The notes beneath the pieces are model-generated. The model did no database searches. It had not been told where the DNA came from and saw only the letters and a program-made list of their open reading frames with translations. A DNA stretch of 64,000 nucleotides from Massilia putida (GTDB lineage: Bacteria; Pseudomonadota; Gammaproteobacteria; Burkholderiales; Burkholderiaceae_D). Position 1 is the stretch's first letter; each line of letters opens with the position of its first letter. Both the position numbers and the translations under genes were made by a program. Shown here piece after piece: positions 18,533 through 40,521 of the stretch. The stretch lies in NCBI RefSeq assembly GCF_001941825.1, contig NZ_CP019038.1:1-64000 (forward strand), read 5' to 3'.

Positions 18533-18544
18533 TGACAAACCGAG

Positions 18545-18580
18545 ATTATGTTTGTCAAACCGCAGATTCTGTTTGTCAAA
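18545..18580. repeat. Left-end transposase-binding-type repeats (two tandem copies, 21-bp period)
   Basis: ATTATGTTTGTCAAA (18545-18559) and ATTCTGTTTGTCAAA (18566-18580) differ at one base and are spaced 21 bp start to start. The terminus itself (TGACAAAC) is a partial inverted copy. The same motif occurs inverted at the right end. Confidence 0.85.
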
Positions 18581-18601
18581 TTGCGTTGAATAAACCTTGG
18601 C

Positions 18602-18620
18602 GGCGCCCAAACTGGGTGCC
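18602..18620 (-). terminator. Hairpin downstream of modC
   Basis: GGCGCCCA and TGGGTGCC form an 8-bp stem (one mismatch) with a 3-nt loop, 54 bp beyond the modC stop and just inside the element end. There is no clear U-run; it could end the mod transcript before it reaches the transposon terminus. Confidence 0.4.
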
Positions 18621-18673
18621 GCATTGCCTGACTGCCGGCAACTTATACGTTGAGACTGCTTGGACTCTGCAGA

Positions 18674-19753
18674 TCAGAGCTCGCGCCAATCCAGCAGTGC
18701 GACCGATTTCACTTGCACCCATAATGTTCGGCCGACGGCAACGTCGAGCGACGCGATCGCCCGTTTGGTGAGCCTTGCCAGCAACACTGACTCGCCGACA
18801 CGCACGCGCACTAGGGCCGTGCCGGGGTGCTCATCATCTCCGATTGCCTCGACATGTCCGCGCAGCACGTTCTGGATGCTGCTGGCCCCAGGATGTTCAG
18901 CCAGGCTAACGTCGCGGGCCAAAATGCGCACGCGAACTTTGTGCCCGACCCCCAGGCCGGCATCCCTGGTCCACAGGTGCCCGCCCTGAAAATCGACACG
19001 CGCCAGATGCCAATCGCGATCCACCATGCCGACCGCTGCCTCCACAATCACACCGGCGTCCTCGCCCATGCGGATCGGCAGGTCGAAACTGGCGAGGATC
19101 TTGGCAAGGGGGCCATCGGCCAACACCTGGCCTTCTTCCATGACCACCAGATGATCAGCCAGGCGCGTTACTTCGTCGGGTGAGTGGCTGACGTAGAGGA
19201 CTGGAATGTCCAGCTCGTCATGCAGCCGTTCCAGGTAGGGCAGTATTTCCCGCTTGCGTTTGACATCCAGCGCAGCCAACGGCTCGTCCATCAGCAGCAG
19301 GCGTGGTGCGACAGCCAGCGCGCGGGCAATGCCCACCCGCTGCCGTTCGCCGCCGGAAAGGCGCTCAGGCTTGCGATCCAGAAGATGGCCGATGCCGAGC
19401 AGTTCGATTGCCTGATCCAGGCCGATCGGCTGCGCCTTGGTGTTTCGCTTCATGCCGTAGCGCAGGTTGCCCACGACGGTCAAATGGGGGAACAGGCTGA
19501 CCTCCTGGAACACGTACCCGATAGGACGCCGGTAGGGTGGCAGCCACGTGCCGGCGTCTTGCCAGACCTCGTCCTCGACAATGAGCCGACCCAGCGCAGG
19601 CTGCTCGAGACCGGCGATACATCGAAGGAGCGTCGTCTTGCCGGAACCGGATGTTCCGAACAAGGCGGTCACGCCCCGTCCAGGCAGCTTGATATCCACG
19701 TCGAGTATGAATTCTCTTCGGACGAGGCGGAAACGCGCTTCGATGGCGGTCAC
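18674..19753 (-). CDS. modC: ModC, molybdate ABC transporter ATPase
   Basis: 359 residues from a GTG at 19753, two bases upstream of the modB stop; the longer open frame would overlap modB by 155 bp. Walker A is GTSGSGKTT, the signature LSGGERQRVG, and Walker B LLLMDEPLAALD. The C-terminal third is a molybdate-binding TOBE/Mop domain (ASSIQNVLRGHVEAI, RLTKRAIASLDVAVG). It energises molybdate import with ModB and ModA, encoded upstream in the same operon. It is the last gene before the left end of the mobile element. Confidence 0.92.
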   Translation of the reverse strand: MTAIEARFRLVRREFILDVDIKLPGRGVTALFGTSGSGKTTLLRCIAGLEQPALGRLIVEDEVWQDAGTWLPPYRRPIGYVFQEVSLFPHLTVVGNLRYGMKRNTKAQPIGLDQAIELLGIGHLLDRKPERLSGGERQRVGIARALAVAPRLLLMDEPLAALDVKRKREILPYLERLHDELDIPVLYVSHSPDEVTRLADHLVVMEEGQVLADGPLAKILASFDLPIRMGEDAGVIVEAAVGMVDRDWHLARVDFQGGHLWTRDAGLGVGHKVRVRILARDVSLAEHPGASSIQNVLRGHVEAIGDDEHPGTALVRVRVGESVLLARLTKRAIASLDVAVGRTLWVQVKSVALLDWREL

Positions 19754-19754
19754 T

Positions 19755-20432
19755 TCATGTGCCCTTTCGGGAATGCGGCCGCCAGACGTACAAAGCCAGA
19801 AGTACGACGAACGAAAAGATGAGCATGACAATTGCGAGCCGGTGCGCTCGCATGTACTCCAGTGCTTCGACGTGGTCGTAGATAGCGACGGAAGCGACTC
19901 GCGTTTCACCCGGCAGATTGCCGCCGATCATAAGCACAACGCCAAATTCTCCGACCGTATGGGCAAAAGTCAGGATAAAGGCAGTGAGGAAGCCGGGTGC
20001 AGCCAGCGGTACCGCAATGGTGAAGAATGCATCCAGTGGTGAAGCGCGCAAGGTGGCCGCCACTTCCAGGGGCCGGTCTCCGACGGCCTCGAACGCCGTC
20101 TGTAGCGGCTGCACCATGAAAGGCATCGAATAGAAGACGGATGCCACGACCAGGCCCCAAAACGTGAACGGCAGCGGTGCCAACCCCAAGGCCCCCGTGA
20201 GTCGTCCGACAGGGCCGTTCGGCCCCATCGCCAGCAGAAGATAAAATCCGAGTACCGACGGCGGTAACACCAGCGGCAACGCGACAATGGCGCCGATCGG
20301 GCCTTTCCACCAGGTCCTGGTACGTGCGAGCCACCACGCGATCGGCGTACCGATCAGCAAAAGAATGCACGTTACCGTGGCGGCCAAGCGCACAGTAAGC
20401 CAGATAGCCTGCAGATCGCCTTGGGTAAGCAT
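19755..20432 (-). CDS. modB: ModB, molybdate ABC transporter permease
   Basis: 225 residues from the ATG at 20432; the open frame is 44 codons longer but would overlap modA. Five to six membrane segments are present, with the permease coupling loop [23 protein letters not shown] and the family sequence [20 protein letters not shown], diagnostic of ModB/CysT-type permeases. It lies between modA (4-bp gap) and modC. Confidence 0.9.
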
Positions 20433-20436
20433 CCCA

Positions 20437-21207
20437 TCATTTTCCGGTAGTCTCGCCAGGCAAGGCAAATCCGTAGCGGACCATGATGGCCCGTGCCGTC
20501 TTGCTGCCCATGTCATCGGAAAAACCGCGAGCCAGGGCGTTGTTTTCCGCGCGTTTGGTGACAATGAAGCCTTGCTCCAGCGGTTGATGCAGATTGTTGG
20601 GGATTAAGGCGTAGCCTCCACGTTTGGCCAGTTCAGGATTGACCGCCAACGACAAGGCGATGATACCGACCTGTGCGTTGCCCGTTTGTACGATCTGGGC
20701 CGTTTGGGCGATATTTTCGCCATACACGAGCTTGGGTTCGACCTTCTGCCAGAGGCCGGCGCCGCGCATCGCTTCCTCGGCGCGTGCGCCGTAAGGCGCG
20801 TGTTTGGGATTGGCAATCGCGATGCGGGTGATCGCAGGATCGGTCAGGGCCGCCAATGTCATTTTGGTCGCGTCCTGGGTCACGCTCCACAGCACGATAC
20901 GGCCAACGGCATAGGGCTTGACGTCCGTGGCCGCGAGGCCGGCCTTGACAAGGGCTCGCGCGAAATCGATATCCGCCGAGAAGTAGAGATCGTAAGGTGC
21001 GCCTTGTTCGATCTGGGTGCGGAATTTTCCAGACGAACCGTAGATGACTTCCACCACATCGCCCGGGTGCGTCTTTCTGAAGGTCGAGGCGATCTCGTCC
21101 ATTGCAAACTTGAGATCGGCCGCAGCTGCGATAGTAATCTTCTCGGCATGGGCCACTGATGCCATCAATACTAAAGAGGCGACCGAAATAAGTTGTGTGA
21201 GTTTCAT
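20437..21207 (-). CDS. modA: ModA, periplasmic molybdate-binding protein
   Basis: 256 residues with signal peptide [21 protein letters not shown]. The mature start [19 protein letters not shown] and the motif [24 protein letters not shown] (written here in two parts: YGSSGKF and [14 protein letters not shown]) match ModA oxyanion-site loops. It delivers molybdate (or tungstate) to ModBC. First gene of the operon; a Mo-box lies about 55 bp upstream of its start. Confidence 0.92.
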
Positions 21208-21261
21208 TCTAGAAATTCTGTTTCTTTATCGCAAAATCACCAAGGATCGATGACGGTGAAC

Positions 21262-21379: not shown

Positions 21380-21410
21380 TTGACCCTTCGGGCCTCGGTC
21401 CTGCTACAAT
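21380..21410 (+). promoter_or_regulatory. Sigma-70-like promoter of the fluoride operon
   Basis: TTGACC (21380-21385) and TACAAT (21405-21410) with a 19-bp spacer. Transcription would start around 21417, at the first base of the fluoride riboswitch, which supports the assignment. Confidence 0.6.
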
Positions 21411-21413
21411 CCA

Positions 21414-21470
21414 GTCAGGAGATGGCATTCCTCCTTTAACCGCCCTTGGGGCTGATGATGCCTGCACAGA
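21414..21470 (+). ncRNA. Fluoride riboswitch (crcB motif)
   Basis: The sequence contains GGAGATGGCATTCCTCC (21418-21434), then TTTAACCGCC and GGCTGATGATGCCTGC, matching the conserved stem, pseudoknot and GAUGAUGCC core of crcB fluoride riboswitches, very close to the Pseudomonas syringae example. It is followed by CCCGGA (21473-21478) and TCCGGG (21520-21525), which can form a terminator-like or RBS-controlling stem ahead of the clcF start. It controls genes for fluoride export downstream. Confidence 0.9.
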
Positions 21471-21554
21471 TTCCCGGATTGGGAAGGTGTAGGTTCACGT
21501 CTGATCAGCCTTCTCCATGTCCGGGTTTGTGACCACACAAACAACAGGACATGC

Positions 21555-22868
21555 ATGAAACCTTCTAAACGCCCCGAGCAGATAGACCTGCTGCCCTACA
21601 TGGGCAAGTGGCTCTTGCTGGCCAGCGCAGTCGCCACGCTTGCCGGATCCGCCTCCGCGTTTTTCCTTTTCGCTCTCGAATGGGCTACCGCGATACGGGT
21701 TGGCCATCGCTGGCTGATCTGGCTGTTGCCGCTTGCTGGATTTGCAGTCGGGTTGCTGTACTTGCGCTTTGGCCAGCATGTCGAAGCGGGCAACAACTTG
21801 CTGATCGACGAGATTCACGATCCAAAGAAGGTCATTCCGCTGCGCATGGCTCCCCTAGTTCTGGGCGGCACAGTCGTTTCCCATCTCTTTGGCGCATCGG
21901 TAGGACGTGAAGGAACGGCGGTACAAATGGGGGGAGCGTTGGCTGACCAGTTCACCCATGTGTTCAAGCTGAAGCACGAAGACCGTCGCATCATCCTCAT
22001 GGCGGGGATCAGCGCCGGGTTCGCATCCGTGTTCGGCACGCCATTGGCGGGGGCTATCTTTGGGTTGGAAGTCCTGGCGATTGGCCGGCTGCGCTATGAC
22101 GCCATCCTGCCTTGCATGGTGGCGGCGATCGTCGCCGACCAGGTAGGGCTCCTCTGGGGTGTCCACCATACCCACTATGCCATCACTTCGATTCCGCCAA
22201 TCTCTGCATGGCTTTTGGTAGCCATGATTGTCGCCGGAGCCATTTTTGGTCTGACTGGCAAGGTGTTCGCCGATGCCACGCACGCCTTGAGCGCCTGGGT
22301 CAAGAAACGGGTACGCTACGCACCGCTGCGGCCTGTGCTGGGCGGTCTTCTGGTGGCGAGCATTGCCTGGTTCTTTGGAGCGGATCGCTATATCGGCCTG
22401 GGCATTCCAACCATTGTCGAGGCGTTTCGTCAGCCGTTGGCCCCTTACGATTTTTTGGGCAAGATGGCATTCACGGTCGTGTCACTGGGTACCGGATTCA
22501 AAGGCGGCGAAGTGACTCCGCTGTTCTACATCGGGGCAACCTTGGGTAATGCCCTTGGTCCTCTCATGAACGTACCGATTCCATTGATGGCTGGCGTCGG
22601 CTTCGTTGCCGTGTTTGCAGGCGCCGCCAACACGCCGATTGCGTCGACCTTGATGGCGATGGAATTGTTTGGTGCCGAAGCAGGCGTTTACGCTGCGGTA
22701 GCGTGCGTCGTGAGCTATCTCTTCTCTGGGCATACTGGCATCTACCGTTCGCAGCGTGTCGGCCACGCCAAGCATCGTCACGCGCCCGAGGGTATCAAGC
22801 TGGGTGAGCTGCCTGTTTACCGGAAGGCGCAGTTCGAAAAAGCCCCGGCCGATACCGCTGAACCTTGA
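21555..22868 (+). CDS. CLC-F type fluoride/proton antiporter
   Basis: 437 residues, with AGGAC 7 bp before the ATG. CLC fold motifs are present: GREGTAVQMGG (in place of the chloride-type GREGP), GISAGFASVFGTPLAGAIFG, and GTGFKGGEVTPLFYIGATLG. The fluoride riboswitch directly upstream and crcB downstream strongly support a fluoride-exporting CLC-F rather than a chloride channel. It is an inner-membrane protein that expels fluoride in exchange for protons. Confidence 0.9.
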   Translation: MKPSKRPEQIDLLPYMGKWLLLASAVATLAGSASAFFLFALEWATAIRVGHRWLIWLLPLAGFAVGLLYLRFGQHVEAGNNLLIDEIHDPKKVIPLRMAPLVLGGTVVSHLFGASVGREGTAVQMGGALADQFTHVFKLKHEDRRIILMAGISAGFASVFGTPLAGAIFGLEVLAIGRLRYDAILPCMVAAIVADQVGLLWGVHHTHYAITSIPPISAWLLVAMIVAGAIFGLTGKVFADATHALSAWVKKRVRYAPLRPVLGGLLVASIAWFFGADRYIGLGIPTIVEAFRQPLAPYDFLGKMAFTVVSLGTGFKGGEVTPLFYIGATLGNALGPLMNVPIPLMAGVGFVAVFAGAANTPIASTLMAMELFGAEAGVYAAVACVVSYLFSGHTGIYRSQRVGHAKHRHAPEGIKLGELPVYRKAQFEKAPADTAEP

Positions 22869-22877
22869 GGATCTGTT

Positions 22878-23216
22878 ATGCATGACATGACCGCCCTACG
22901 CCTGTACTTTCCCCACTCGGCACGTGCCAAACCGACTCGCTTCTGGCATCGGCTTTCCGCCCCACAGTTAAGCACTTATCTGCTCAGCGCGGCGCGCCGA
23001 GACGGTATCCAGCAGGCCCTGCTGCATGGCGTCCAAGCAGGCTACCTGCCGGGCAACAAGCTCAGCCGCCACCACATCGAGTCCACACCCTCGCATCACC
23101 CACTTTGCATCGAATTGATCGATGCGGAGGATCGGCTTCGAAAGTTTCTTCATGCACACGCGGAAGAGTTGCGGCACGTTCGCGCCGTCTTGTTCCGCTG
23201 CGAACTGGCAATCTGA
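22878..23216 (+). CDS. DUF190-like protein of the fluoride operon (first copy)
   Basis: 112 residues, GAGGA 6 bp before the ATG. The sequence [20 protein letters not shown], then [16 protein letters not shown], follows the DUF190 pattern (a PII-like small fold) in which an alpha-helix, a glycine-rich loop and an I-E-I-V-D-x-E strand alternate. DUF190 genes often accompany crcB; their role is unknown. Compared with the second copy at 23628 it is more divergent and His/Arg rich. Confidence 0.65.
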
Positions 23217-23229
23217 GAAGGGGCTTGCC

Positions 23230-23616
23230 ATGATCCGCTCTTTGCTTGCGATATCGATCGGCGCTTCGTTGGGCGCCATCTCGCGTTGGGGCTTGGGCAC
23301 GGCATTCAACGCCTTGTTTCCTACGATCCCACCCGGCACGTGGCTGGCGAACGTACTTGGCGGTTACCTGATGGGCGTCTCGCTCGCTTACTTTGGTCAG
23401 CATGCGAGCCTGGCGCCCGAGTGGCGACTGCTCGTTATCACAGGCTTTCTCGGGGGACTGACGACCTTTTCGACATTTTCTGGAGAGGTCACCGCATTGA
23501 TCCAGCAAGGGCGCATGCTATGGGCTAGCGCCGCCGTCGTTGCGCATGTAGCCGGCTCCTTGGTGATGACGCTTCTCGGGTTGGCAACCGTCGCTGTTCT
23601 TAAACCTATGACGTAA
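23230..23616 (+). CDS. crcB: CrcB/Fluc fluoride channel
   Basis: 128 residues from the ATG at 23230 (GAAGGGG upstream); the open frame extends 36 codons further into the preceding gene. Four membrane helices are predicted, with [27 protein letters not shown] and [15 protein letters not shown], the conserved Fluc motifs including the Asn and the Phe-box/TTFSTF segment. It works as a dual-topology dimer that lets fluoride leave the cell. Third gene of the riboswitch-controlled operon. Confidence 0.93.
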
Positions 23617-23627: not shown

Positions 23628-23945
23628 ATGCAAGGCTATCAAATTACGTTCTTCACGCAGCAAGACCGCAAGCATGGGCATATATGCCTTGGCGATTGGC
23701 TGGTCAAGGAAGCGCGCAAGCTCGGGGTCGGCGGGGCGACACTAATCGCGGCATCCGAAGGATTCGGTCACGACCACAGGCTGCATTCGGCACATTTCAT
23801 CGATCTGGCAGACCAACCGATCGAAGTCACGATGGCACTGAGTGCCGAGGATGTGGAGCGTTTATTTCAGCGCCTGCACGAGGAGCGAATCGATGTGTTC
23901 TATGTCAAGACGCCGATCGAATTCGGCATGACCAGCGACGTATAG
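23628..23945 (+). CDS. DUF190 protein of the fluoride operon (second copy)
   Basis: 105 residues, GGAG before the ATG. YQITFFTQQDRKHGHICLGD, GVGGATLIAASEGFGHDHRLHS and FIDLADQPIEVTMALSAED give the typical DUF190 order (sheet, glycine loop, H-SA.F strand). The family is linked to crcB across bacteria; a signalling or metal/nucleotide-binding role has been proposed from fold alone. It lies between crcB and the half-size EamA gene. Confidence 0.75.
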   Translation: MQGYQITFFTQQDRKHGHICLGDWLVKEARKLGVGGATLIAASEGFGHDHRLHSAHFIDLADQPIEVTMALSAEDVERLFQRLHEERIDVFYVKTPIEFGMTSDV

Positions 23946-23955: not shown

Positions 23956-24387
23956 ATGACCTCCGGGAGCTGGTTTTATTGGGCGATCTTGTCCGCGTTT
24001 TTTGCGGCATTGACCGCTATTTTTGCGAAAATCGGCATCCAAGAGGTGGACTCCGATTTGGCCACCTTGATACGGACGGCGATCATCATCGTCGTTTTGT
24101 CGGCCTTCGTTGTTTGGGCCGGTAAATGGGCGAATCCCTTCGCGCTGTCCCGCAAAACCTGGCTATTTCTCGGATTGTCCGGCCTGGCCACGGGCGGATC
24201 ATGGGTGTGCTATTTTCGGGCACTCAAAATCGGGGATGCGTCCAAGGTCGCGCCTGTAGACAAATTCAGCCTTGTCCTGGTTGCCATTTTCGCCTTCACG
24301 TTTCTCGGGGAACGGCCTTCGTTTCGCGAGTGGTCCGGGATTGCAATGATAGCGGGCGGTGTGCTCCTGCTTGCCCTCAAGCGATAA
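23956..24387 (+). CDS. Half-size EamA/DMT membrane protein (first of a pair)
   Basis: 143 residues, about five membrane segments, one EamA domain instead of the usual two: FFAALTAIFAKIGIQEVDSD, then SGLATGGSWVCYFRALKIGD and APVDKFSLVLVAIFAF. GGGGCTCAGG precedes the ATG. Single-domain EamA proteins work as dimers. A paralog of the same length (143 residues) is at 25320-25751 on the other strand. Substrate unknown; the fluoride operon context is its only clue. Confidence 0.75.
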   Translation: MTSGSWFYWAILSAFFAALTAIFAKIGIQEVDSDLATLIRTAIIIVVLSAFVVWAGKWANPFALSRKTWLFLGLSGLATGGSWVCYFRALKIGDASKVAPVDKFSLVLVAIFAFTFLGERPSFREWSGIAMIAGGVLLLALKR

Positions 24388-24420: not shown

Positions 24421-24795
24421 CTAACGGGAAGGGGTGCCGGCCAGTTCGCACAATGCTTTTAGTTCCGCTGCCGCCTCAGCGTTGAGACGTTGCTCCAGCG
24501 TGTCATACGCGGCGATTAGCTTCTTTCCCAATTCGGTCAAGGATGCGCCGCCGCCGCCTCTTCCACCTGTCGCGGTGTCCATGACCGTGCTCGCCAAGCT
24601 CTTGTTCAGGGAGTCGATGAGGAGCCAGGCACGCTTGTAGGGAACGTCGAGCGAGCGGGCCGCGGCTGAGATCGAACGGGACGCACCGACCGCCCGCAGC
24701 AGATCGATTTTGCCTGGACCGATCGCGATACTGTCCCCGATGTAGATGCGTGGACGAAGAAGAACGGCATGGGGAAGAACGGGTTCTTTGGTCAT
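24421..24795 (-). CDS. ModE-like winged-helix regulator, DNA-binding domain only
   Basis: 124 residues from the ATG at 24795 (an ATG 7 codons upstream is also open; neither has a clear RBS). IAIGPGKIDLLRAVGASRSISAAARSL (cut here for length) and PYKRAWLLIDSLNK form the LysR/ModE-type HTH, followed by GGRGGGGASLTELGKKLI, the wing of ModE. The two C-terminal Mop domains of full ModE (about 260 residues) are absent, so molybdate sensing must be indirect or lost. Its expected target is the Mo-box at 21262-21285. Confidence 0.8.
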   Translation of the reverse strand: MTKEPVLPHAVLLRPRIYIGDSIAIGPGKIDLLRAVGASRSISAAARSLDVPYKRAWLLIDSLNKSLASTVMDTATGGRGGGGASLTELGKKLIAAYDTLEQRLNAEAAAELKALCELAGTPSR

Positions 24796-24884
24796 CGTTG
24801 TTCGTAAGCGAGACATTTCGGGCAGGCCGACTCCGTTGGCCTGAGTATCGTTTCCGGTGGCGTATGCTGCTCCTCACCTCATGG

Positions 24885-25217
24885 CTAGGGGGCGCGCCCC
24901 CAGCCGACGACGATTACCGTCATGCCGAACAAGGCGATCGCCGCGCCAATCCAGTCATACGTCGATAGCTTAACGCCGTCCACGAAACGCATCCACACGA
25001 GTGCAGTCGCGACATAAGCGCCGCCGTAGGCCGCGTACACTCTGCCACTGGCTGCTGGATGCAAGGTTAGCAGCCAGACAAAAAGTACCAGACTTGCGAC
25101 GGCGGGAACTAACAACCAGGTTGAGCCTCCTTTACGCAGCCAGAGATACGGCAGAAAACAGCCGATGATCTCGGCAAGTGCTGTGACAAGGAACAGCAGG
25201 ATAGTTTTCGACAGCAT
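24885..25217 (-). CDS. YnfA/UPF0060-family membrane protein
   Basis: 110 residues, four membrane helices, with the family motifs [38 protein letters not shown] and [16 protein letters not shown]. YnfA proteins resemble small multidrug-resistance exporters, but their physiological substrate is not settled. It stands alone on the minus strand between the ModE-like gene and the second EamA gene, inside the mobile element. Confidence 0.85.
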
Positions 25218-25319: not shown

Positions 25320-25751
25320 TTATCCGCGTGAGATGACCAGAAGACCGGTCACGATCAGCAATCCGCCGAGCATCTTCGGCAGCGTGATTGCCTCATGAAG
25401 AATCCAATAAGAAAGAGCCAAGGCGATCACGACGCTGCCCTTATCGATCAGCGCGACTGTCGAGACGTTACCGGCCTTGATGGCTTTATAGTAGAAAATC
25501 CAGGACGCAGTGGTCGTGACGGCCGATGCACCCAGCCAGATCACATTCCTCCACGTCAGCAACTGCAGATCCTGTAGCGGCACCGTCAGGCTGGCAAAAC
25601 ACAGCATGAATACAAACACGAAGCAGGTTCGGACGGTGAGCCCGAGATCGCCGGAAATGCCAGCCAGTCCGAGTTTCGCGATGACTGAAGTGAACCCGGC
25701 GAATGCCATCGAGACGAAAGCATAGATGATCCAACGTTCCATATTTTCCAT
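25320..25751 (-). CDS. Half-size EamA/DMT membrane protein (second of a pair)
   Basis: 143 residues if started at the ATG at 25751; MERW at 25742 is also possible. Five membrane segments and a single EamA domain: AFAGFTSVIAKLGLAGISGD, ASAVTTTASWIFYYKAIKAG and ALIDKGSVVIALALSYWIL align along the whole length with the protein at 23956. The two could form a heterodimer or two homodimers. It is upstream of nothing and downstream of nothing on its strand except ynfA, so it seems to be a single-gene unit. Confidence 0.75.
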   Translation of the reverse strand: MENMERWIIYAFVSMAFAGFTSVIAKLGLAGISGDLGLTVRTCFVFVFMLCFASLTVPLQDLQLLTWRNVIWLGASAVTTTASWIFYYKAIKAGNVSTVALIDKGSVVIALALSYWILHEAITLPKMLGGLLIVTGLLVISRG

Positions 25752-25860
25752 TCCGTATAGAGTAGACAAGATATAGTCCGTTACTGCTGGCCATCAGTAT
25801 TCACGGTGCCGATTCATGACAGGCTCCGTGACTCGCCAGAAACGGAAGTTTGCGAGCACG

Positions 25861-26577: not shown

Positions 26578-26996
26578 TTAATTCGCTTTCCTTCTGCATC
26601 GACAACAGGTTCGCCGTCCTCTTTCGTAAAGGCGCCGCGCTGCGGTACAGGCAGGATATCCAGCACGACCTCGGACGGACGGCACAGCCGTACGCCGGCT
26701 GGCGTGACCACGAATGGGCGGTTGATCAGGATTGGGTGGGCAAGCATGGCGTCAATCAACTGCTCATCCGTGGTCGCTGGATTGTCCAGGCCCAGCTCGA
26801 GGTAAGGCGTGCCTTTCTCGCGCACTGCGCCGCGCACCGCCAAGCCAGAGCGCTGAATCAGATCGACCAGCGTGATGTGGTCCGGCGGTTGCTGCAGGTA
26901 TTCGATGACGGTGGGTTCGATACCGGCATTGCGGATCAGCCCAAGCGTATTGCGCGACGTGCCGCAATCGGGGTTGTGGTAGATCGTCACTTCCAT
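26574..26996 (-). CDS. arsC: ArsC, glutaredoxin-coupled arsenate reductase
   Basis: 140 residues, GAAAGGA before the [21 protein letters not shown] carries the catalytic Cys of the R773-type ArsC, and [17 protein letters not shown] has the arsenate-site Arg residues. It reduces arsenate to arsenite using glutathione and glutaredoxin; ArsB then exports arsenite. It sits between arsB and arsH, and is unrelated in fold to the three LMW-phosphatase-type ArsC proteins in this element. Confidence 0.92.
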
Positions 26997-29507: not shown

Positions 29508-29510
29508 AAA

Positions 29511-29544: not shown

Positions 29545-29564
29545 CTTTTCAAAAAGGGATGTTT

Positions 29565-30575: not shown

Positions 30576-30631
30576 TCACCGGATCGACGCCGCAGCTTGA
30601 TTCGCGGCGTCATATTGGAATCGCGATCAAC

Positions 30632-32475: not shown

Positions 32476-33292
32476 GCCCGGCAATGTCACGCAGTTCGCA
32501 ATCGCAGCAACGAAGAAGGATCGGCAAAAACACATGACATCGACCAAGATCGCGGTGAAAAGCCTGAATTTCTACTACGGCACCAGCCACTCGTTGAAGG
32601 ACGTGACATTGAGTTTCCCGCAGATGAACGTGACCGCTATTATCGGCCCTTCCGGCTGCGGAAAATCCACGCTGCTACGCGTCCTGAATCGGATGTACGC
32701 GACCTACCCCGGTCAGCGGGCGACGGGCGAAGTCATCCTTGATGGTGAAAATGTCCTGGATAAAAGCTATTCACTCAACCGATTGCGCAAAAAGGTCGGG
32801 ATGGTTTTCCAGAAGCCGGTACCCTTTCCGATGTCGATCTACGAAAACATCGCTTATGGCCTGCGACACCACGAAGCGCTCAGCAAGTCGGAGCTCGATT
32901 TCAGGGTAGAGGAGGCACTTCGCGGCGCGGCATTATGGGATGAAGTCAAGGACAAGCTGAAGTCGAGCGGTCTTTCCCTATCCGGCGGCCAGCAGCAGCG
33001 CCTGTGTATTGCCCGCTCTCTGGCTGTGCGGCCTGAGGTGCTGCTGCTCGACGAACCGACTTCCGCGCTCGACCCGATTTCGACCGGCAAGATCGAGGAA
33101 CTCATCGCGCAATTACGTGACCAGTACACGATCGTGATCGTCACCCACAACATGCAACAGGCGGCTCGCTGCTCGGACTTCACTGCCTACATGTATCTTG
33201 GCGAACTGATCGAGTTCGGCGAGACGGACGATCTCTTCATGCATCCAGTCAAACGGGAAACCCAGGACTATATCACCGGCCGTTTCGGTTGA
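32468..33292 (+). CDS. pstB: PstB phosphate ABC transporter ATPase
   Basis: 274 residues from the ATG at 32468, which has a perfect AAGGAGG site inside the end of pstA. The N-terminus is about 20 residues longer than usual before [20 protein letters not shown]. Walker [10 protein letters not shown], signature LSGGQQQRL and Walker [14 protein letters not shown] are present. It drives phosphate import. phoU follows after 27 bp. Confidence 0.95.
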
Positions 33293-33319
33293 TGCTTGAT
33301 ACCTGACGGAGAACGTAAT

Positions 33320-34024
33320 ATGCAAGGTGAGCACTCCTCCAAGCAATATGATGCAGAGCTGGAGTCGATTCGCTCGGACGTCTTGATGATGGGTGGCATC
33401 GTCGAAGCCCAGCTCAGCGACGCGATGTGCAGCTTCAGGACAGGCAATCTGGTTCTGGCCGACGCGGTCATTCAGGCCGACTCAAACGTCAATCGCCTGG
33501 AAGTCCTGCTTGACGACGCCTGTAGCCACCTGATCGTCAAGCGTCAGCCGGCCGCGAACGACCTGCGCGCCGTGATCGGAACGGTCAAACTCATCACCGA
33601 CCTGGAACGCATTGGCGATGAGGCAAGCAAAATTGCGCGGACAGCACAGCGTCTTCATCGGGACGCACACCGCGGCAGCTTCGATTACTATGCCCATATC
33701 CGTACACTGGGCGAAGGCGCCGCCAGAATGGTGAATCGCGCTCTGGACGCGTTCGCGCGTTTGGACCAGGAGCAGGCTCGAACGATCATCACAGATGATG
33801 AAGCTGTCAATTTCGAGTTCCGGACGGTCGCGCGCACTACGATCACATACATGATGGAGGATCCACGACTGATTTCCGGCGCGCTGGACGTCCTTTGGGT
33901 CGCCAAAGCGCTAGAGCGCATTGCGGACCATGCCAAGGGCATCGCCGAATACGTCGTGTATATCGTCGAAGGGAAGGATATTCGTCATATCGGCGGCACC
34001 CATGCAGAGCGAATCCAATCTTGA
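33320..34024 (+). CDS. phoU: PhoU, phosphate signalling and transport regulator
   Basis: 234 residues from the ATG at 33320 (ACGGAG upstream). Two PhoU three-helix repeats are seen, each with the metal-binding signature: TDLERIGDEASKIARTAQRL and KALERIADHAKGIAEYVVYI. PhoU links Pst activity to PhoR/PhoB signalling. No phoR is present; instead an unusual PhoB-like gene overlaps its 3' end by 23 bp. Confidence 0.93.
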   Translation: MQGEHSSKQYDAELESIRSDVLMMGGIVEAQLSDAMCSFRTGNLVLADAVIQADSNVNRLEVLLDDACSHLIVKRQPAANDLRAVIGTVKLITDLERIGDEASKIARTAQRLHRDAHRGSFDYYAHIRTLGEGAARMVNRALDAFARLDQEQARTIITDDEAVNFEFRTVARTTITYMMEDPRLISGALDVLWVAKALERIADHAKGIAEYVVYIVEGKDIRHIGGTHAERIQS

Positions 34025-34730
34025 CGCGACCCGAGCCATACCAACGGTACTTGTCCTGGGTACCGACCTGCATTTCCCTAGACAGCTGACCTCGTCTTTC
34101 GCAGCGGCCGGACTGGAACCCATTGAGGCACGCTCGGTCGTGGAATGCCGCGGGCATGCATTGCGGTTTAACCCAACTGTCATCCTGCTGGCAGGCTCGG
34201 CGGCGGATCCATGCTGTCTCGGTTTCCTGTCATCGGTACGAAGTGATAGCGCTTTGCGCGAGCTTCCTGTCGCGATTGTATGTCATCGATGTCCGCAACC
34301 GCTGCGACTGGCTGCGCTTGAGCGCGGCGCGGACCTATGTCTTGCCGATACGACCTCTGATAGGGAAATGACAGCGTGGGTAAACGCGCTACTGCGAGCG
34401 CCGTCGCTAACTCAATCCAATGCAGAGAAGATCGTACGGGGTCGGTTATCGCTGGACCCTATTAACTACATCACGATGTTCGATCAACGCGTCCTGAAAA
34501 TTGGCCGGGCTGAGTTCAAGCTCCTCCTGTTCTTCGTGGAGCACCCGAATAAACCGTTTAGCCGAGAACAATTGCTCAAGTCAGTATGGGGACAGCAAGT
34601 TGCAATTGATGAGCGTACCGTCGACGTAAGCATCATGCGTCTTCGAAAAGCTTTTACAGGAGTACCAAACGGACTCCGAACCATACGCGGCATCGGCTAC
34701 CAGTTCGAACCCGAAGAGCTACAGGCTTGA
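34002..34730 (+). CDS. PhoB-like winged-helix regulator with degenerate, Cys-rich receiver domain
   Basis: 242 residues from the ATG at 34002. The C-terminal half is an OmpR/PhoB DNA-binding domain (LKIGRAEFKLLLFFVEHPNK, SREQLLKSVWG, VDVSIMRLRKAF, TIRGIGYQFEP). The N-terminal half aligns with a receiver, but the phosphoacceptor position is Ala64 (VILLAGSA in place of LILLDWML), the acidic pair is lost (VLVLGTD), the switch Thr is Cys94 and the Lys is missing. It has six cysteines: C49, C71, C72, C94, C97 and C113. Phosphorylation by PhoR seems impossible. A thiol/arsenite-controlled regulator of the Pho box is my inference. Confidence 0.8.
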   Translation: MQSESNLDATRAIPTVLVLGTDLHFPRQLTSSFAAAGLEPIEARSVVECRGHALRFNPTVILLAGSAADPCCLGFLSSVRSDSALRELPVAIVCHRCPQPLRLAALERGADLCLADTTSDREMTAWVNALLRAPSLTQSNAEKIVRGRLSLDPINYITMFDQRVLKIGRAEFKLLLFFVEHPNKPFSREQLLKSVWGQQVAIDERTVDVSIMRLRKAFTGVPNGLRTIRGIGYQFEPEELQA

Positions 34731-34796: not shown

Positions 34797-35306
34797 TTAT
34801 AGCTTCATTGTAGCGATCGCTCTAACCGCTTCGGTCCTGGCCTCCCAGTCGTCCATCCAATCCAACGGGAGCATGACGAGCTGCTCGACACGCTTGCGGA
34901 TCTGCAGGAAGGTCCGGGAAAAGGCGGCGCGCTTCTCATCGTCCGTTCCTTTCACCTGGACTGGATCGGCATATCCCCAATGTGCGGTTGTCGGATGACC
35001 AGGCCAATGCGGGCAAGCTTCTCCTGCCGCGTTGTCACATACCGTGATGATGAAATCCATCTGGGGCGCCTTAGGTAACGAAAATTCGAACCAGCTCTTG
35101 CTGTTCATCTGCTCGGTCGGAAACCTTGGATCAAACTGCTTGATCTGCTCGATCGCGAAGGGGTTGACGGTTCCCGTGTGGTGGCTGCCGGCCGAATATC
35201 CTTTGAAACGTCCTCTGCTCAGAATGGTGACCAGCGCTTCGGACATGATGCTGCGAGCGGAGTTACCGGTGCAAAGGAAGAGGACGTTGTAGGGCTTCTT
35301 TGTCAT
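34797..35306 (-). CDS. arsC: ArsC, LMW-phosphatase-type arsenate reductase (second of three)
   Basis: 169 residues. P-loop CTGNSARS and the redox cysteines in TVCDNAAGEACPHWPGHP mark the LMW-PTP ArsC family; YADPVQ carries the general acid. It lies 12 bp downstream of the third copy, convergent with the PhoB-like gene. It is closer to the third copy than to the one at 28377, with the shared insertion HWPGHP. Confidence 0.9.
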   Translation of the reverse strand: MTKKPYNVLFLCTGNSARSIMSEALVTILSRGRFKGYSAGSHHTGTVNPFAIEQIKQFDPRFPTEQMNSKSWFEFSLPKAPQMDFIITVCDNAAGEACPHWPGHPTTAHWGYADPVQVKGTDDEKRAAFSRTFLQIRKRVEQLVMLPLDWMDDWEARTEAVRAIATMKL

Positions 35307-35318
35307 CCGTCATCCACA

Positions 35319-35840
35319 TCAAACAGTATCGGCAGAGCGAGACGAAGACTGACCGATGACGCTCAGCTCCTTCTGGATCGCCAGGCGGGACAGCTTCTCG
35401 AGAGGCAGCATCGAAAACATGTCGAGCCGATTCTTGATCTCGCGGCAGACCCGGGTGAAGTGTTGGCGTTGGGCTTGGTCATCGCCTTGAAGGGAAGCGG
35501 GATCCTCAAAACTCCAGTGTGCGGAAATAGGATGGCCAGGCCATCGTGGGCACACCTCTCCGGCTGCCTTGTCGCAGACCGTGATCACGAAGTCCATATG
35601 AGGAGCATCCGCTGTGGCGAACTCGTCCCAGCTTTTGCTGCGTAGGTCCTCGGTCGAGAAGCCGAACCGATCAATCTGCTCGATCGCCAGCGGGTGGACT
35701 ACGCCGGTTGGATGGCTTCCGGCGCTGAATGCTCGGAACCGATGCGTGCTGGTTCCATTGAGCAGCGCCTCGGCAATGATGCTGCGGGAGGAGTTCCCGG
35801 TGCAAAGAAAAAGTACGTTGAAGATATGGTCATCGGTCAT
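35319..35840 (-). CDS. arsC: ArsC, LMW-phosphatase-type arsenate reductase (third of three)
   Basis: 173 residues with P-loop CTGNSSRS and TVCDKAAGEVCPRWPGHP. The general acid is in FEDPAS. First gene of a two-gene unit with the arsC at 34797. Upstream lies an ArsR-type operator motif (35923-35949) shared with the arsR gene at 38824, so this unit and the divergent flavoprotein gene are probably controlled by that ArsR. Confidence 0.9.
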   Translation of the reverse strand: MTDDHIFNVLFLCTGNSSRSIIAEALLNGTSTHRFRAFSAGSHPTGVVHPLAIEQIDRFGFSTEDLRSKSWDEFATADAPHMDFVITVCDKAAGEVCPRWPGHPISAHWSFEDPASLQGDDQAQRQHFTRVCREIKNRLDMFSMLPLEKLSRLAIQKELSVIGQSSSRSADTV

Positions 35841-36098: not shown

Positions 36099-37508
36099 AT
36101 GAACGAAGAAACTAAAAATGCCGCAAGAGTGGCAGTGCTCGGTGCCGGTCCAGTCGGCCTCGCTGCAGCCTCACACCTGCTTGAACGCGGCCTGACCCCA
36201 CTGGTATTGGAGGCCGGACCCAGTGTCGGCGCCAACCTCGCGACCTACCGGCACGTGCGTCTTTTCTCGCCATGGCAGTACAATGTCGACAAGGCGGCCC
36301 GGCGCCTGCTGGAAGCTCATGGCTGGAAGGCCCCGGCCGATGACTCCCTGCCGACCGCCGGCGAACTGCTCGACGACTATCTGGCGCCGCTGGCCGGGAC
36401 GCCCGGGATTGCGGCCAATCTGCGGCTCGGCCATCGCGTTACCGCCATCACCCGCATCGGCTTTGACAAGGTCAAGACGAAGGGCCGCGAAGGCGCTCCC
36501 TTCCTCATCCGCGCCGAGACGGCCGAGGGCCCGCGCGAGTACCTAGCCAGCGCGGTGATCGACGCCACTGGCACCTGGTCGCACCCGAACCCGCTGGGCG
36601 CAGATGGTATTCCGGCGCTGGGCGAAGCCGCGCTGGCTGCGCGCATCGATTACGGCATGCCCGACGTGCTTGGCGCCGCACGGGAGCGCTTTGCAGGGCG
36701 GCGCGTACTGGTCGTGGGCGCCGGACACTCCGCGGCCGGCACGCTGCTCGCGCTTGCCCAGCTGGTCCAGGACCATCCTGGGACCAGCATCGTGTGGGCG
36801 ACGCGCGGCAGCCAGCTGGCCCGAGTGTTCGGTGGCGGCGAAGCCGATGGCCTGCAGGCGCGCGGCCAGTTGGGGATGCGCCTGAAAGCTTTACGGGATG
36901 CAGGCGGCCTGGAGCTCCACCAGAATTTCCGTATCCAGGAGCTGGTCGAGGTCGACGGAAGGGTTCGTGTCAACGGAGATCCGGTCGGCGGCTCGGTACC
37001 GGTGATCGACGGGATCGACCGCATCGTCTGCTCGGCAGGCGCCCGGCCCGATCTCGCGCTGACCCGGGAACTGCGCGTACGCCATGACCCGTGGCTCGAA
37101 AGCACCGATGCCCTGGCACCGCTGATCGACCCGAACGAACACAGCTGCGGCACCGTCCGCCCACACGGGCACCGCGAGCTGGCGCACCCGGAGCACGGCT
37201 TTTACGCCGTCGGCGCAAAGAGCTATGGCCGTGCGCCGAACTTCCTGCTGGCAACCGGGTACGAACAGGTCCGTTCGGTGGTCGCAGCCCTAGTGGGCGA
37301 CATGACGGCGGCTGACGATGTGCAGCTTGACCTTCCGGAAACGGGCGTCTGCAATACGCGCCTGGCGTACGAGGATGTTGCGGTCGAGCCGATCACCTCC
37401 TGCTGCAACGTGCCTGCCGCAACTGCCGCTGCCTGCTGCGTGCCCGCTCCAATGACGACCGGCGCCTGTGGCTGCAGCAAGCCCAAGGAAACGAGCTGCT
37501 GCGCTTGA
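36099..37508 (+). CDS. ArsO-like flavin monooxygenase/oxidoreductase with Cys-rich C-terminal tail
   Basis: 469 residues, AGGAGAG before the ATG. The first Rossmann motif is VLGAGPVGLAAASHLLERG (FAD) and the second VLVVGAGHSAAGTLLALAQL (NAD(P)H), the layout of FAD-dependent monooxygenases. The last 40 residues carry four vicinal or near-vicinal Cys groups: SCC, CC, CGC and CGCSKPKETSCCA covers the last two. Such a tail could bind arsenite. Similar flavoproteins occur in ars operons as ArsO; the reaction is not established. It is followed by an MFS gene and arsR on the same strand. Confidence 0.75.
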   Translation: MNEETKNAARVAVLGAGPVGLAAASHLLERGLTPLVLEAGPSVGANLATYRHVRLFSPWQYNVDKAARRLLEAHGWKAPADDSLPTAGELLDDYLAPLAGTPGIAANLRLGHRVTAITRIGFDKVKTKGREGAPFLIRAETAEGPREYLASAVIDATGTWSHPNPLGADGIPALGEAALAARIDYGMPDVLGAARERFAGRRVLVVGAGHSAAGTLLALAQLVQDHPGTSIVWATRGSQLARVFGGGEADGLQARGQLGMRLKALRDAGGLELHQNFRIQELVEVDGRVRVNGDPVGGSVPVIDGIDRIVCSAGARPDLALTRELRVRHDPWLESTDALAPLIDPNEHSCGTVRPHGHRELAHPEHGFYAVGAKSYGRAPNFLLATGYEQVRSVVAALVGDMTAADDVQLDLPETGVCNTRLAYEDVAVEPITSCCNVPAATAAACCVPAPMTTGACGCSKPKETSCCA

Positions 37509-37571
37509 TTTGAACGCAATTTGAACGACCTGCCGCCGGCGCGTGCTGGCGGCGTCATCCTGGAGTTGATC

Positions 37572-38786
37572 GTGCATCAGCCATCGAAAACCGTCGGCAT
37601 TCTTGCCGTTACCCAGATCATTTCCTGGGGATCGCTTTTCTACGCCTTCAGCATCGTTGCGCCCGATATCCAGCGAGACCTTACCCTTGGGCCGGAACTG
37701 GTATTCGGCGCCTTTTCCTGGGCACTACTTGCTGCGGGGCTGGTCGCGACACCGGCCGGGATCATGCTGGACCGCTACGGTGGCCGTTACGTCATGGCGA
37801 CCGGTTCGCTCCTGAGCTTCCTCGGATTGGTCTGGCTCAGCCGGTGCGAAGATGCCGCCTCTTACTATCTCGCCTGGTCGCTGATCGGCGTGGCGATGGC
37901 TCTGACGCTCTATGAGGCCGCTTTTGCAACGATTAACCGCAAGCTCGAGACCGGCTCAAGGCAGGCGATTTCTACCCTGACGCTGTTCGCCGGCTTTGCC
38001 AGCACCTTGTTCTGGCCCTTGACCGCCAAACTCCATACGATGCTCGGCTGGCGTGATACCTACCTGTGGTATGGGGTTGCGCAGCTTGTCGTGTGCATGC
38101 CGCTGCATCTCCTGCTTGGCACAGATCGCGCTCGCTCCACTGGAAAGCAGCATGCCAGCATGGGCCGGAGTCATACCCTGGCGGAAGCCTTGCGGCATCC
38201 CGCATTCTGGCTGCTCGCGGCCGCATTCTCGGCCAACCAATTCATCTTTTCGGCAATGGCCGCCCACCTCATCCCGTTGCTTGAGCGTCTGGGCCAGTCG
38301 ACGGCAGTGGCAGTGTTACTGGCTGCGCTGGTCGGCCCGATGCAGGTGGCAGGCCGTGTCGGGGAAATGACGCTTGCACGTGACACGCCGCCGCAAACGG
38401 TGGGCAAGCTGACCTTTGCCATGCTGCCTGGCGCCTTGCTCGTGCTCCTGCTTTTCGGTTCGGCAGGATGGGCGGTCGCCGTATTTTGTGTCCTCTATGG
38501 CCTGAGCAACGGCATCCTGACGATCGTGCGCGGTTCGATTCCACAGGTAATGTTCGGGCGCGAGAACTATGGTGCGATCTCCGGCGCCATGGCCGGACCT
38601 TCACTGCTGTCGAAGGCGGCCGGGCCGTTGGTCGCAGCGGCGGTCCTTCGCCAGGGCGGCGGTCCTGTGGTGTTGCTGTCCGCGCTGCTGGCGGTTTCGC
38701 TCGCCTCGCTCGCGTTTTACCTGCGTGCAGTTACGGCCGAACGGGATTTGCAATCCGCAAAGCCTTTTGACAAGAGCACGGTCTAA
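37572..38786 (+). CDS. MFS transporter of the arsenic cluster (possible arsenical exporter)
   Basis: 404 residues from a GTG at 37572 with GGAG 7 bp upstream; a TTG at 37521 is also open. Twelve membrane segments with the MFS loop GIMLDRYGGRYVMATGSLL. Two gene contexts fit: ArsK-type arsenite exporters and ArsJ-type exporters of arsenylated metabolites. No GAPDH gene is next to it, which argues against ArsJ. It lies 63 bp after the flavoprotein and just before arsR. Confidence 0.75.
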   Translation: MHQPSKTVGILAVTQIISWGSLFYAFSIVAPDIQRDLTLGPELVFGAFSWALLAAGLVATPAGIMLDRYGGRYVMATGSLLSFLGLVWLSRCEDAASYYLAWSLIGVAMALTLYEAAFATINRKLETGSRQAISTLTLFAGFASTLFWPLTAKLHTMLGWRDTYLWYGVAQLVVCMPLHLLLGTDRARSTGKQHASMGRSHTLAEALRHPAFWLLAAAFSANQFIFSAMAAHLIPLLERLGQSTAVAVLLAALVGPMQVAGRVGEMTLARDTPPQTVGKLTFAMLPGALLVLLLFGSAGWAVAVFCVLYGLSNGILTIVRGSIPQVMFGRENYGAISGAMAGPSLLSKAAGPLVAAAVLRQGGGPVVLLSALLAVSLASLAFYLRAVTAERDLQSAKPFDKSTV

Positions 38787-38791
38787 GGTCT

Positions 38792-38818
38792 ATTCTGCGT
38801 TCGGCAAACAACGAATGA
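38792..38818. promoter_or_regulatory. Putative ArsR operator, copy 2 (arsR promoter)
   Basis: ATTCTGCGTTCGGCAAACAA followed by CGAATGA, the second copy of the motif at 35923-35949. It ends at the presumed start region of arsR (ATG at 38815 or 38824), which fits autorepression. Confidence 0.6.
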
Positions 38819-38823
38819 GCTAC

Positions 38824-39141
38824 ATGTCAAAGTCCTGCTGTCCACCGGTAACCCCTCGCGAGCGCGCTACGGAAATCGACGTCGATGACCTGGCGCGCAT
38901 GTGCAAAGCACTCGCACATCCTGCCCGTTTGCAGTTGCTCCGGCACCTGATCGATCACGGCGAGTGCTACTTTGGGAGTCTGGCTGACGTGCTGCCCTTG
39001 GCGCCGTCGACGATCTCCCAGCACGTCTCGATCCTGAAGGAGGCGGGTCTGATCGAAGGTTCCTCGGATGTGCAGAGGGTTTGCTATTGCGTCAACCAAG
39101 AGCGCCTACGACAGCTCAAACTTGCGATTGAAGATCTCTAG
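38824..39141 (+). CDS. arsR: ArsR repressor, N-terminal Cys type (CgArsR-like)
   Basis: 105 residues from the ATG at 38824 (an in-frame ATG at 38815 is possible). MSKSCCPP places a vicinal pair at C5-C6, and HGECYFGSLADVL gives C48; this matches the Corynebacterium ArsR site (two N-terminal Cys plus one near residue 55) rather than the C-terminal type at 28942. The HTH is LPLAPSTISQHVSILKEAG. It probably controls its own gene and the arsC/flavoprotein promoters through the shared operator motif. Confidence 0.9.
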   Translation: MSKSCCPPVTPRERATEIDVDDLARMCKALAHPARLQLLRHLIDHGECYFGSLADVLPLAPSTISQHVSILKEAGLIEGSSDVQRVCYCVNQERLRQLKLAIEDL

Positions 39142-39173
39142 CCGATAGCGTTGAATAATCGCTAGACTGCATC

Positions 39174-40219
39174 GGCTTTGTTGAGCAAATCGAGCGAAGG
39201 CCGAGCTGACGCTATTTGTAGTTCGTTTTATAACACTGGGACCGTAATCGGCGTACCCAGCCGAGTAAAGCGGTTCAGCACGGCAGCTCGCACCTGCAGT
39301 TCGGCGACCTGACGGTCGAAGTCGCGTGCCATGACACGTTCGCCCAGCAGCTTGAAGCAGCGCATCTTGGTTTCAACAAGGCTGCGCCGGTGGTAGCCGC
39401 TCCATCGCTTCCATATTGCCCGTCCCACCCTTTTTGTCGTCCGCAGGATATTGTTACGTGCATCGGCACCGCAGCGGTTTGCCTTCCAAGGCTTGGCGTT
39501 CTTGCGGGTCGGGATGATGGCATGCGCGGCGCGCAACGCGATGGCTTCATGACAGTCCTTGGTGTCGTAGGCACCATCGCCACTGACGCTGGCAATCTTC
39601 TCGTCTGCAGGAATCTGATTCAGCAGCACTGGAAGGACAGGCGCGTCGACGATACTGTTGTCGGTCACCTCGATGGCCCGGATTTCAAGCGTGGACGCGT
39701 CAATCCCGAGGTGCACCTTGCGCCATTGGCGACGATAGTCCGCACCATGCTTCTTCGTCTTCCATTCGCCTTCGCCCAGCATCTTAATGCCCGTGCTGTC
39801 CACCAGCAGATGCAAACCCGTCGTGGTCGGTACAGCGCCGATGGCCACCTGCAGCGTCTTCTGCCGACGGCTTACCGTGCTGTAGTCCGGCACCGGCCAG
39901 TCAAGTCCCGCCAGGCGCAGCAGGCTTTGCGTCATGCCCATGGCCTGGCGCAGCGGCAAATTGAACATGCACTTGATGCTCAGGCAGAACTGGATAGCCT
40001 GATCGCTGAATGTCTCGCTGCGTCCGCGCTTGCCGCTCGGCTGACCATGCCAGTTCATCTTCGGATCAAGCCAGATGAGCAGCGAGCCACGTGCCTTGAG
40101 AGCTTCGTTATACGTCTTCCAGTTGGTAGTACGGTACTTCTGTGGAGCCGGTTTCATCCGCTTAGGCTACCAGACCTACCGGTTCTACGCCGGCCGAGCC
40201 TGATTTGCGCAACAAAGCC
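39174..40219 (-). mobile_element. IS903-like insertion sequence (IS5 family), 1046 bp, no target duplication
   Basis: The ends are inverted repeats: GGCTTTGTTGAGCAAATC at the left and its partner at the right with one mismatch (GGCTTTGTTGCGCAAATC), the IS903-group type. It holds one transposase gene. The 9 bp on the left (GACTGCATC) and right (GCCATGACG) differ, so there is no target duplication; an IS-mediated deletion or recombination is likely. Confidence 0.85.
39228..40157 (-). CDS. IS903-like transposase (IS5 family, DDE)
   Basis: 309 residues, the normal length for this group. TNWKTYNEALKARGSLLIWL at the N-terminus is typical. Catalytic residues are in LLVDSTGIK (first Asp), SVSGDGAYDTK (second Asp) and RRSLVETKMRCFK (Glu). 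The gene looks intact. It transposes only its own IS ends, which do not resemble the ends of the 22-kb element. Confidence 0.92.
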   Translation of the reverse strand: MKPAPQKYRTTNWKTYNEALKARGSLLIWLDPKMNWHGQPSGKRGRSETFSDQAIQFCLSIKCMFNLPLRQAMGMTQSLLRLAGLDWPVPDYSTVSRRQKTLQVAIGAVPTTTGLHLLVDSTGIKMLGEGEWKTKKHGADYRRQWRKVHLGIDASTLEIRAIEVTDNSIVDAPVLPVLLNQIPADEKIASVSGDGAYDTKDCHEAIALRAAHAIIPTRKNAKPWKANRCGADARNNILRTTKRVGRAIWKRWSGYHRRSLVETKMRCFKLLGERVMARDFDRQVAELQVRAAVLNRFTRLGTPITVPVL

Positions 40220-40383
40220 GCCATGACGGTCCAGCTGCCCTATCGGACGAGCACTATGCTCCCTGTGCTGGTTCTTACTTTAGGTCGCGCAGTGGTTGGG
40301 CACAAGGGTGCGTTCGACTGGTGGTACTGGTATCGGCCACTGATGGTCGCCGACTACTGTTCTGAGCGGTTGCATGCCTTAAC

Positions 40384-40509
40384 TTGACAAACATTGACGG
40401 CACGTCAACAGGGCACCGGACCACCGCAGAGCGAAATTTGACAAACATTGACGAACCAGTAACATGCCTAAGCTGTTGATTTTACAGGCGCAGATTTGAC
40501 AAACATAAT
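40384..40509. repeat. Right-end transposase-binding-type repeats (three copies)
   Basis: TTGACAAACATTGACG (40384-40399), TTTGACAAACATTGACG (40437-40453) and TTTGACAAACATAAT (40495-40509) are inverted relative to the left-end repeats. The last is the exact complement of the outermost left repeat and also lies 12 bp from the terminus. Spacing is 53 and 58 bp, wider than at the left. The 160 bp between the IS and the first repeat (40220-40383) holds an open frame without recognisable relatives; I see nothing else there. Confidence 0.85.
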
Positions 40510-40521
40510 TTGATCTATTCA

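Follow-up and report, generated by a model that had tools for sequence, protein, structure and literature searches.

We analyzed the first 64,000 nucleotides of contig NZ_CP019038.1 of Massilia putida (hereafter the window), in which a discrete segment of 21,989 bp (positions 18533-40521) interrupts a SIS-domain gene resembling gmhA. The segment carries mod, fluoride, arsenic and pst-type phosphate transport genes. Codons 1-13 of the interrupted gene (MIDYIKGNLVEAR, 18493-18531) lie to its left and the remainder to its right, with ACGTG present on both flanks; when the two pieces are joined at one copy of ACGTG, the reading frame continues through VEARDALER. All of this had been reported by the first-pass annotation, made from the letters alone, and it stands. 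A 5-bp target-site duplication is a trait of the Tn7 family. The G+C content of the segment (0.585) is nearly equal to that of the DNA outside it (0.596), so the insert is invisible from composition alone.

Exact reconstruction of the target had also been claimed, and a search for uninterrupted gmhA with the same flanks proposed. When the right-hand gmhA piece was searched as DNA against 62 genomes of the genus, a related stretch was found in 22, and the copy in genome G347 was 100% identical. There, the left and right flanks are joined with an overlap of exactly ACGTG, present once, so that G347 provides a natural empty site. Its island aligns with window positions 1-18532 and 40522-48664; the 26,676 aligned bp contain 7 mismatches and a single gap (99.97% identity; blocks of 827, 18,532 and 7,317 bp). 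The two genomes are only ~77-82% identical in another region, the nodT-type target of a second element described below, and we conclude from this difference that the island moved horizontally. Since the insert is missing from a near-identical island, its insertion is younger than the island transfer, and recent. More diverged intact gmhA-like copies (90%) are present in the same genome (C3:1289076) and in G355, and a 74% relative lies among metal transporters on a plasmid of Massilia sp. H6.

The insertion would be older than it appears if G347 had once carried the segment and lost it by precise excision, which we regard as very unlikely. Excision leaves a double-strand break, and precise healing needs an uninterrupted template; the site in G347 is exact, with a single ACGTG, and G347, which we take to belong to the sample searched, is not one of the genomes with a TnsB relative at E ≤ 1e-100 (11 of 392 in the family). 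On the other side, Tn7 elements do excise completely, by cut and paste, as described in PMC11406308.

Both termini of the segment are built from one repeat. In agreement with the first-pass annotation, ATTATGTTTGTCAAA starts 12 bp in from either terminus, the two copies being inverted relative to each other. Going beyond that annotation, we found the repeat doubled on the left (cores at 18545 and 18566, 21 bp apart) and tripled on the right (40381, 40435 and 40493; spacings 54 and 58 bp). The 7.5-Mb genome contains exactly four occurrences of the terminal 14-mer TTATGTTTGTCAAA, two at this element and two at the second element, which bounds other cargo, as the first-pass annotation had suggested looking for; with TTATGTTTGTCAAA confined to two copies per element, the sharing exceeds chance. 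Four further places match with one mismatch, and two of these also lie at the ends of the same elements. A 17-position site matrix was trained on 26 sites from relatives and the second element, none of them from the window. When the 64-kb window was scanned with it, the five best matches were the five end sites (31.2, 28.7, 27.5, 24.8 and 21.8 bits); the next-best score was 14.6 bits, and ten shuffled windows peaked at 10.0-14.6 bits. As judged from sequence, the end repeats are thus arrays of predicted Tn7-type TnsB sites.

Tn7 has one dense and one spread end, and the same asymmetry is present here (21-bp versus 54-58-bp spacing); we take the left end to be the Tn7R-like and the right end the Tn7L-like one. 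Tn7 termini read TGT...ACA; those of the window element read TGA...TCA, as do those of its tns-bearing relatives. Outermost sites stand 12 bp inside both termini, which coincides with the median distance for Tn7-like elements in PMC8649781, where 3 and 4 TnsB sites are given for the ends of Tn7 itself. An artefact of assembly or recombination would have had to create the perfect duplication and the end arrays on both sides, and would leave unexplained the naturally empty site in an independent genome; nothing speaks for it beyond the insertion sequence (IS) near one edge, and we give it practically no credence.

Related elements that carry transposition genes allowed us to place these ends. 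The right-hand end of the window element (its final 302 bp) is 84.2% identical, over 304 bp, to the spread end of an element in G387 (L021); its identity to the two spread ends in G311 is 84.7% (294 bp) and 79.8% (292 bp). The G387 element encodes TnsA-TnsB-TnsC-TniQ, a helicase-like gene and a second TniQ before the spread end; its TnsB and TnsC match the solved Tn7 TnsB (4.7e-66) and TnsC (6e-65), and AGATG stands beside both its dense and its spread end, located on two contigs. The dense ends lie 24 bp (G387) and 22 bp (G311) after the glmS stop codon, the glmS models scoring above cut-off. From the Tn7-type TnsB and TnsC of the G387 element and the position of both elements just after glmS, we assign this type of element to the Tn7 lineage with glmS targeting. 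The first-pass annotation had guessed a TnsB/TniA-like recombinase. The TnsB part holds, and the genes carried by elements with homologous ends allow the class to be sharpened to the Tn7 (TnsABC + TnsD) lineage.

We also considered whether the insertion was the work of a different recombinase family (Tn5053/TniA, Mu or IS21), with repeats that merely resemble TnsB sites. TG...CA ends with a 5-bp duplication occur in several DDE families, and the termini here do depart from those of Tn7; but TGA...TCA also ends the tns-bearing elements, ~300 bp of end homology is shared with elements carrying TnsA, TnsB, TnsC and TnsD relatives, and the dense ends in G387 and G311 follow glmS, the Tn7 target, by 22-24 bp. 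This explanation seems to us highly improbable. Tn5053/Tn402 elements have TniA, TniB, TniQ and TniR and 25-bp ends; the relatives here carry TnsA and Tn7-type TnsB/TnsC, which places them outside that group on gene content, the 25-bp end sequence not being part of the comparison.

Among 392 genomes of the family, the spread-end pattern was matched in three: the source genome, G387 and G079. In a wider contig collection, it was matched in one stretch, on a contig of Telluria antibiotica TW-1. The other matches sit at glmS or in the second element rather than in gmhA, and the idea that gmhA is targeted recurrently found no support. The window element itself lies inside the SIS/gmhA gene and not about 25 bp past glmS, the position that defines attTn7.

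The tnsA, tnsB, tnsC and TniQ genes expected inside a Tn7-family element are absent from it. When the Tns proteins of both sets were compared with the window by tblastn, no credible match was obtained (best E 0.093, outside the element), and neither tblastn nor six-frame searches revealed TnsA, full-length TnsB or TniQ in the window element. In six-frame searches of the whole genome, the second element contained the single TnsA and both TniQ that were found, and also the only full-length TnsB; the other TnsB match (C3:1980921) is partial, at 31%. A probable point of loss is visible, which the first-pass annotation did not mention. Homology to the relatives ends at 40220, in codon 2 of their second tniQ gene, although G387 and the first G311 copy continue to match each other into that gene. 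An IS5-family copy, which we take to be IS903-like, begins exactly where the tniQ2 homology stops. The 9-mers outside it, GACTGCATC and GCCATGACG, differ, so the IS lacks a target duplication; this IS group makes a 9-bp duplication. The copy has no near-identical counterpart in the genome (next best 81% over 936 of 1,046 bases), which suggests that it probably arrived with the element. An IS-adjacent deletion is the simplest account of the loss of tns. An IS composite transposon was considered and rejected: the single IS copy is internal and stands at neither terminus.

The second element of the same genome (C3:3954521-3983768) is flanked by the duplication TAAAT and lies inside a gene for a NodT-type outer-membrane protein (TIGR01845; the fragment scores 201.9 bits, slightly below the cut-off of 210 bits). 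Eight loci were fetched; in the four relatives checked among them, the nodT-type target is without exception intact. The element encodes TnsA, TnsB, TnsC and two TniQ/TnsD proteins (C3:3969-3977 kb). Its TnsB has no Pfam match and aligns with the solved Tn7 TnsB at 1.2e-60 across the presumed catalytic (DDE) regions; its TnsC also matches the TniB model. This resident TnsB is likely to recognize the ends in the window.

We consider it moderately probable that the segment is a Tn7-family cargo-only element that lost tns through an IS-linked deletion and was then mobilized in trans. Its ancestor would have carried tnsABC and two tniQ genes, one of them beside the spread end. An IS5-family copy would have inserted at codon 2 of the second of these, and a deletion adjacent to it would then have taken out the entire tns block. 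Because both ends survived, the 22-kb unit could still have been cut and pasted by TnsAB(C) of an element with the same type of ends, under TnsC and a TniQ supplied from elsewhere; mobilization was probably carried out in trans by another element's enzymes. The move into the SIS/gmhA gene of the metal-resistance island would have been very recent, the island itself apparently travelling between genomes of the genus. The donor could have been the resident TnsABC at C3:3.97 Mb, the only tns set found in the genome today, or one on incoming DNA. Neither of the sites used in this genome, gmhA and nodT, is glmS.

The scar can also be explained without any movement in trans, if a complete, self-mobile Tn7-family transposon hit gmhA and then lost tns in place by IS-adjacent deletion. 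The IS without target duplication at the scar and the tns genes of relatives with homologous ends agree with such a sequence of events, but the very recent insertion (7 mismatches in 26,676 bp of flank) leaves little time for it, and the IS, as the sole near-identical copy, was probably present on arrival, with which a later adjacent deletion is still compatible. Loss in place is, in our judgement, unlikely.

Several observations nevertheless weigh against mobilization in trans. No second copy of the tns-less unit was found among the spread-end pattern matches in the family genomes, and the spread end searched as DNA had no match in 72,556 plasmid records; with no second copy, the argument that the unit moved after losing tns draws on the timing and on the IS being single-copy. 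That IS could have been in tniQ2 already and have made the deletion after landing. The dense end of the window element has two recognizable sites, compared with three, spaced 20-21 bp, in each of the four related dense ends of the training set, and the resident TnsB is 75% identical to the TnsB of the closest-ended relative. The searches here covered TnsA, TnsB, TnsC and TniQ; in glmS-targeting elements, TnsE is almost universal as well (PMC11406308).

In summary of its class, the element belongs to a well-known transposon family as a variant without transposase, and its empty-site counterpart is unusually clean. It shares with Tn7 and other glmS-directed elements (TnsABC + TnsD) the 5-bp duplication, the TnsB-type site arrays, the dense and spread ends and the 12-bp offset, and its relatives with homologous ends have TnsA, TnsB, TnsC and two TniQ/TnsD proteins and follow glmS. 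Unlike Tn7, it has no tns genes, lies in a metal-island gene and ends in TGA...TCA. Among described elements, CMGI-E of Cupriavidus metallidurans CH34 (TnsABC D1 D2) is likewise a Tn7-like element from the Burkholderiales; it lies outside attTn7 and has two tnsD genes, as our second element does, and its tns block has been broken by IS activity, as is proposed for the window element; in CMGI-E, however, tns persists, split by an inversion, and the cargo is for aromatic degradation (PMC3384475). Elements with two tnsD genes outside attTn7 are known, and one TnsD has been proposed to allow non-specific targeting (PMC3384475, citing Parks and Peters). Catalogued Tn7-like transposons have end arrays, arsenate/metal cargo, internal IS elements and multiple nested ends in common with the elements described here (PMC8649781). 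Transposase-less units whose ends are moved in trans by a related enzyme also exist outside the Tn7 family, the Tn3-type TIMEs (PMC4133298) among them; these differ in transposase family, and the mobility of the window element is deduced from its sequence. Our literature searches returned no publication on the element itself or on Massilia Tn7-like elements.

The occupied and empty sites, with 99.97% identical flanks, form a natural before-and-after pair for a non-glmS Tn7-family insertion by a unit without transposition genes; a candidate donor is named in the same genome, and an IS-linked route from self-mobile island to passenger can be traced. If the unit did move in trans, one resident TnsABC can serve several cargo units, and the spread of Tn7-type cargo is undercounted by surveys that start from tnsB. 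One such survey covered up to 125 kb to each side of tnsB (PMC8649781), so a tns-less element would presumably be found only near the tnsB of another element. Wider interest hinges on proof of movement in trans. A bolder view, which we advance tentatively as a possibility, sees in the element a mobile satellite of resident Tn7-type transposons: a 22-kb unit of stress-resistance cargo, stripped down to the ends of a transposon and moved in trans by the TnsABC of a distant element, with a second TniQ steering it from glmS into mobile metal islands, so that Tn7 systems would spread cargo unseen by tnsB-centred surveys.

The cargo classes named by the first-pass annotation hold, although several individual gene names rest on context (Table 1). 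An Rfam fluoride riboswitch that precedes the CLC and CrcB genes lends weight to the fluoride label. Chloride-channel models match the CLC gene below cut-off, and its fluoride specificity is suggested by the riboswitch. The ars block was matched in 40 of the 62 genus genomes. The best cargo match outside (G397, 89%) has a different gene order, and no element end was found in the 40,000 of 45,605 bases read of its contig. Plasmid searches with the cargo gave only pieces, covering at most 11% of a query among the matches listed.

Table 1. Features of the inserted element and its borders (window coordinates)
Feature	Position	Strand	Remarks
SIS-domain/gmhA-like gene, 5' fragment	18493..18532	+	codons 1-13; ends in left ACGTG
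Target-site duplication ACGTG, left copy	18528..18532	.	single in G347
Transposed element	18533..40521	.	termini TGACAAAC...TCTATTCA
Dense (Tn7R-like) end	18533..18582	+	predicted TnsB-type sites 18545-18561 and 18566-18582, spacing 21 bp
modC-like ABC ATPase with TOBE domain	18674..19909	-	open reading frame as listed; true start not fixed
modB-like permease	19755..20564	-	
modA-like binding protein	20437..21207	-	
Fluoride riboswitch RF01734 (Rfam)	21409..21471	+	57.2 bits, gathering score 34
CLC-family channel/antiporter	21555..22868	+	CLC fold; likely fluoride type by context
DUF190 protein	22878..23216	+	
CrcB/Fluc fluoride channel	23122..23616	+	
DUF190 protein, second	23628..23945	+	
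EamA-type transporter half	23956..24387	+	
ModE-like winged-helix regulator	24421..24816	-	weak HTH_1, 24.6 bits, under 26.6 cut-off; ModE by context
YnfA/UPF0060 membrane protein	24885..25217	-	
EamA-type transporter half, second	25320..25769	-	
arsH	25861..26577	-	TIGR02690 above cut-off
arsC, ArsC family (PF03960)	26574..26996	-	
arsB	27010..28290	-	
arsC, low-molecular-weight phosphatase (LMWP) type	28377..28856	-	LMWPc domain; arsC name by context
arsR	28942..29286	-	
pstS, pstC, pstA, pstB-like phosphate ABC transporter	29538..33292	+	Pfam domains; phosphate from pst/phoU order
phoU and phoB-like regulator	33296..34730	+	reading frames overlap at 33921-34024
Two further LMWP-type arsC-like genes	34797..35840	-	
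Flavoprotein monooxygenase, distant ArsO relative	36099..37508	+	43 bits, far under 425-bit cut-off
MFS transporter, ArsK-like	37521..38786	+	285.9 bits, under 400-bit cut-off
arsR	38569..39141	+	C-terminal part of open reading frame
IS5-family insertion sequence	39174..40219	-	inverted ends GGCTTTGTTGMGCAAATC; transposase 39228-40157 (NF033579)
Spread (Tn7L-like) end	40220..40521	-	first bases of lost tniQ2; predicted sites 40381-40397, 40435-40451, 40493-40509
Target-site duplication ACGTG, right copy	40522..40526	.	
SIS/gmhA-like gene, 3' part	40522..41092	+	

The SIS gene that the insert interrupts closely resembles gmhA models. Its intact relatives, carried on plasmids of Massilia and Janthinobacterium, fall slightly short of the cut-offs of those models and lie amid metal transporters, and for these two reasons the interrupted gene could be a paralogue belonging to the metal island instead of the housekeeping gmhA.

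The second element (L009/L010) has two spread ends, at 3977327 and 3983768. Its target duplication is shared by the dense end and the outer of these, as though two tandem elements had transposed as a single unit. Between the two spread ends (L010 8486-12544) are genes for a ThiF/E1 protein, a multi-ubiquitin protein and a CapP-like peptidase, together with a 177-amino-acid gene that has no Pfam or PADLOC match and is JAB-like by eye only; these are probably ubiquitin-like or defence cargo. G311 has a layout like these double spread ends, plus a decayed second tns set; its array could not be read as simple insertions, since neither the inner nor the outer spread end shares a 5-bp duplication with the dense end. 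In G387 (L021 12520-12600), a spread end and a new dense end are 3 bp apart, and the terminal TG of one of the two elements overlaps with the AGATG duplication of its neighbour. G079 has a lone spread end (C1:258128-258154), with no partner in the 40 kb read and no TnsB relative at E ≤ 1e-100 in the genome, 25 bp after what we take, from the 3' codons, to be a glmS-type stop; it is a remnant at attTn7.

Another Tn7-like dense-end type, with three ACAATAAAGTCGGACAC-type repeats at 20-bp spacing, was observed just outside the inner spread end R1 of the second element (L010 8344-8400), outside R2 in G311 (L089 16176-16232), and 26 bp after the glmS stop of the source genome (L100 1409-1465; G000:C3 near 4016220). 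The insert at this glmS may lack tns genes too, since no TnsA or TniQ gene was found in the genome outside the second element.

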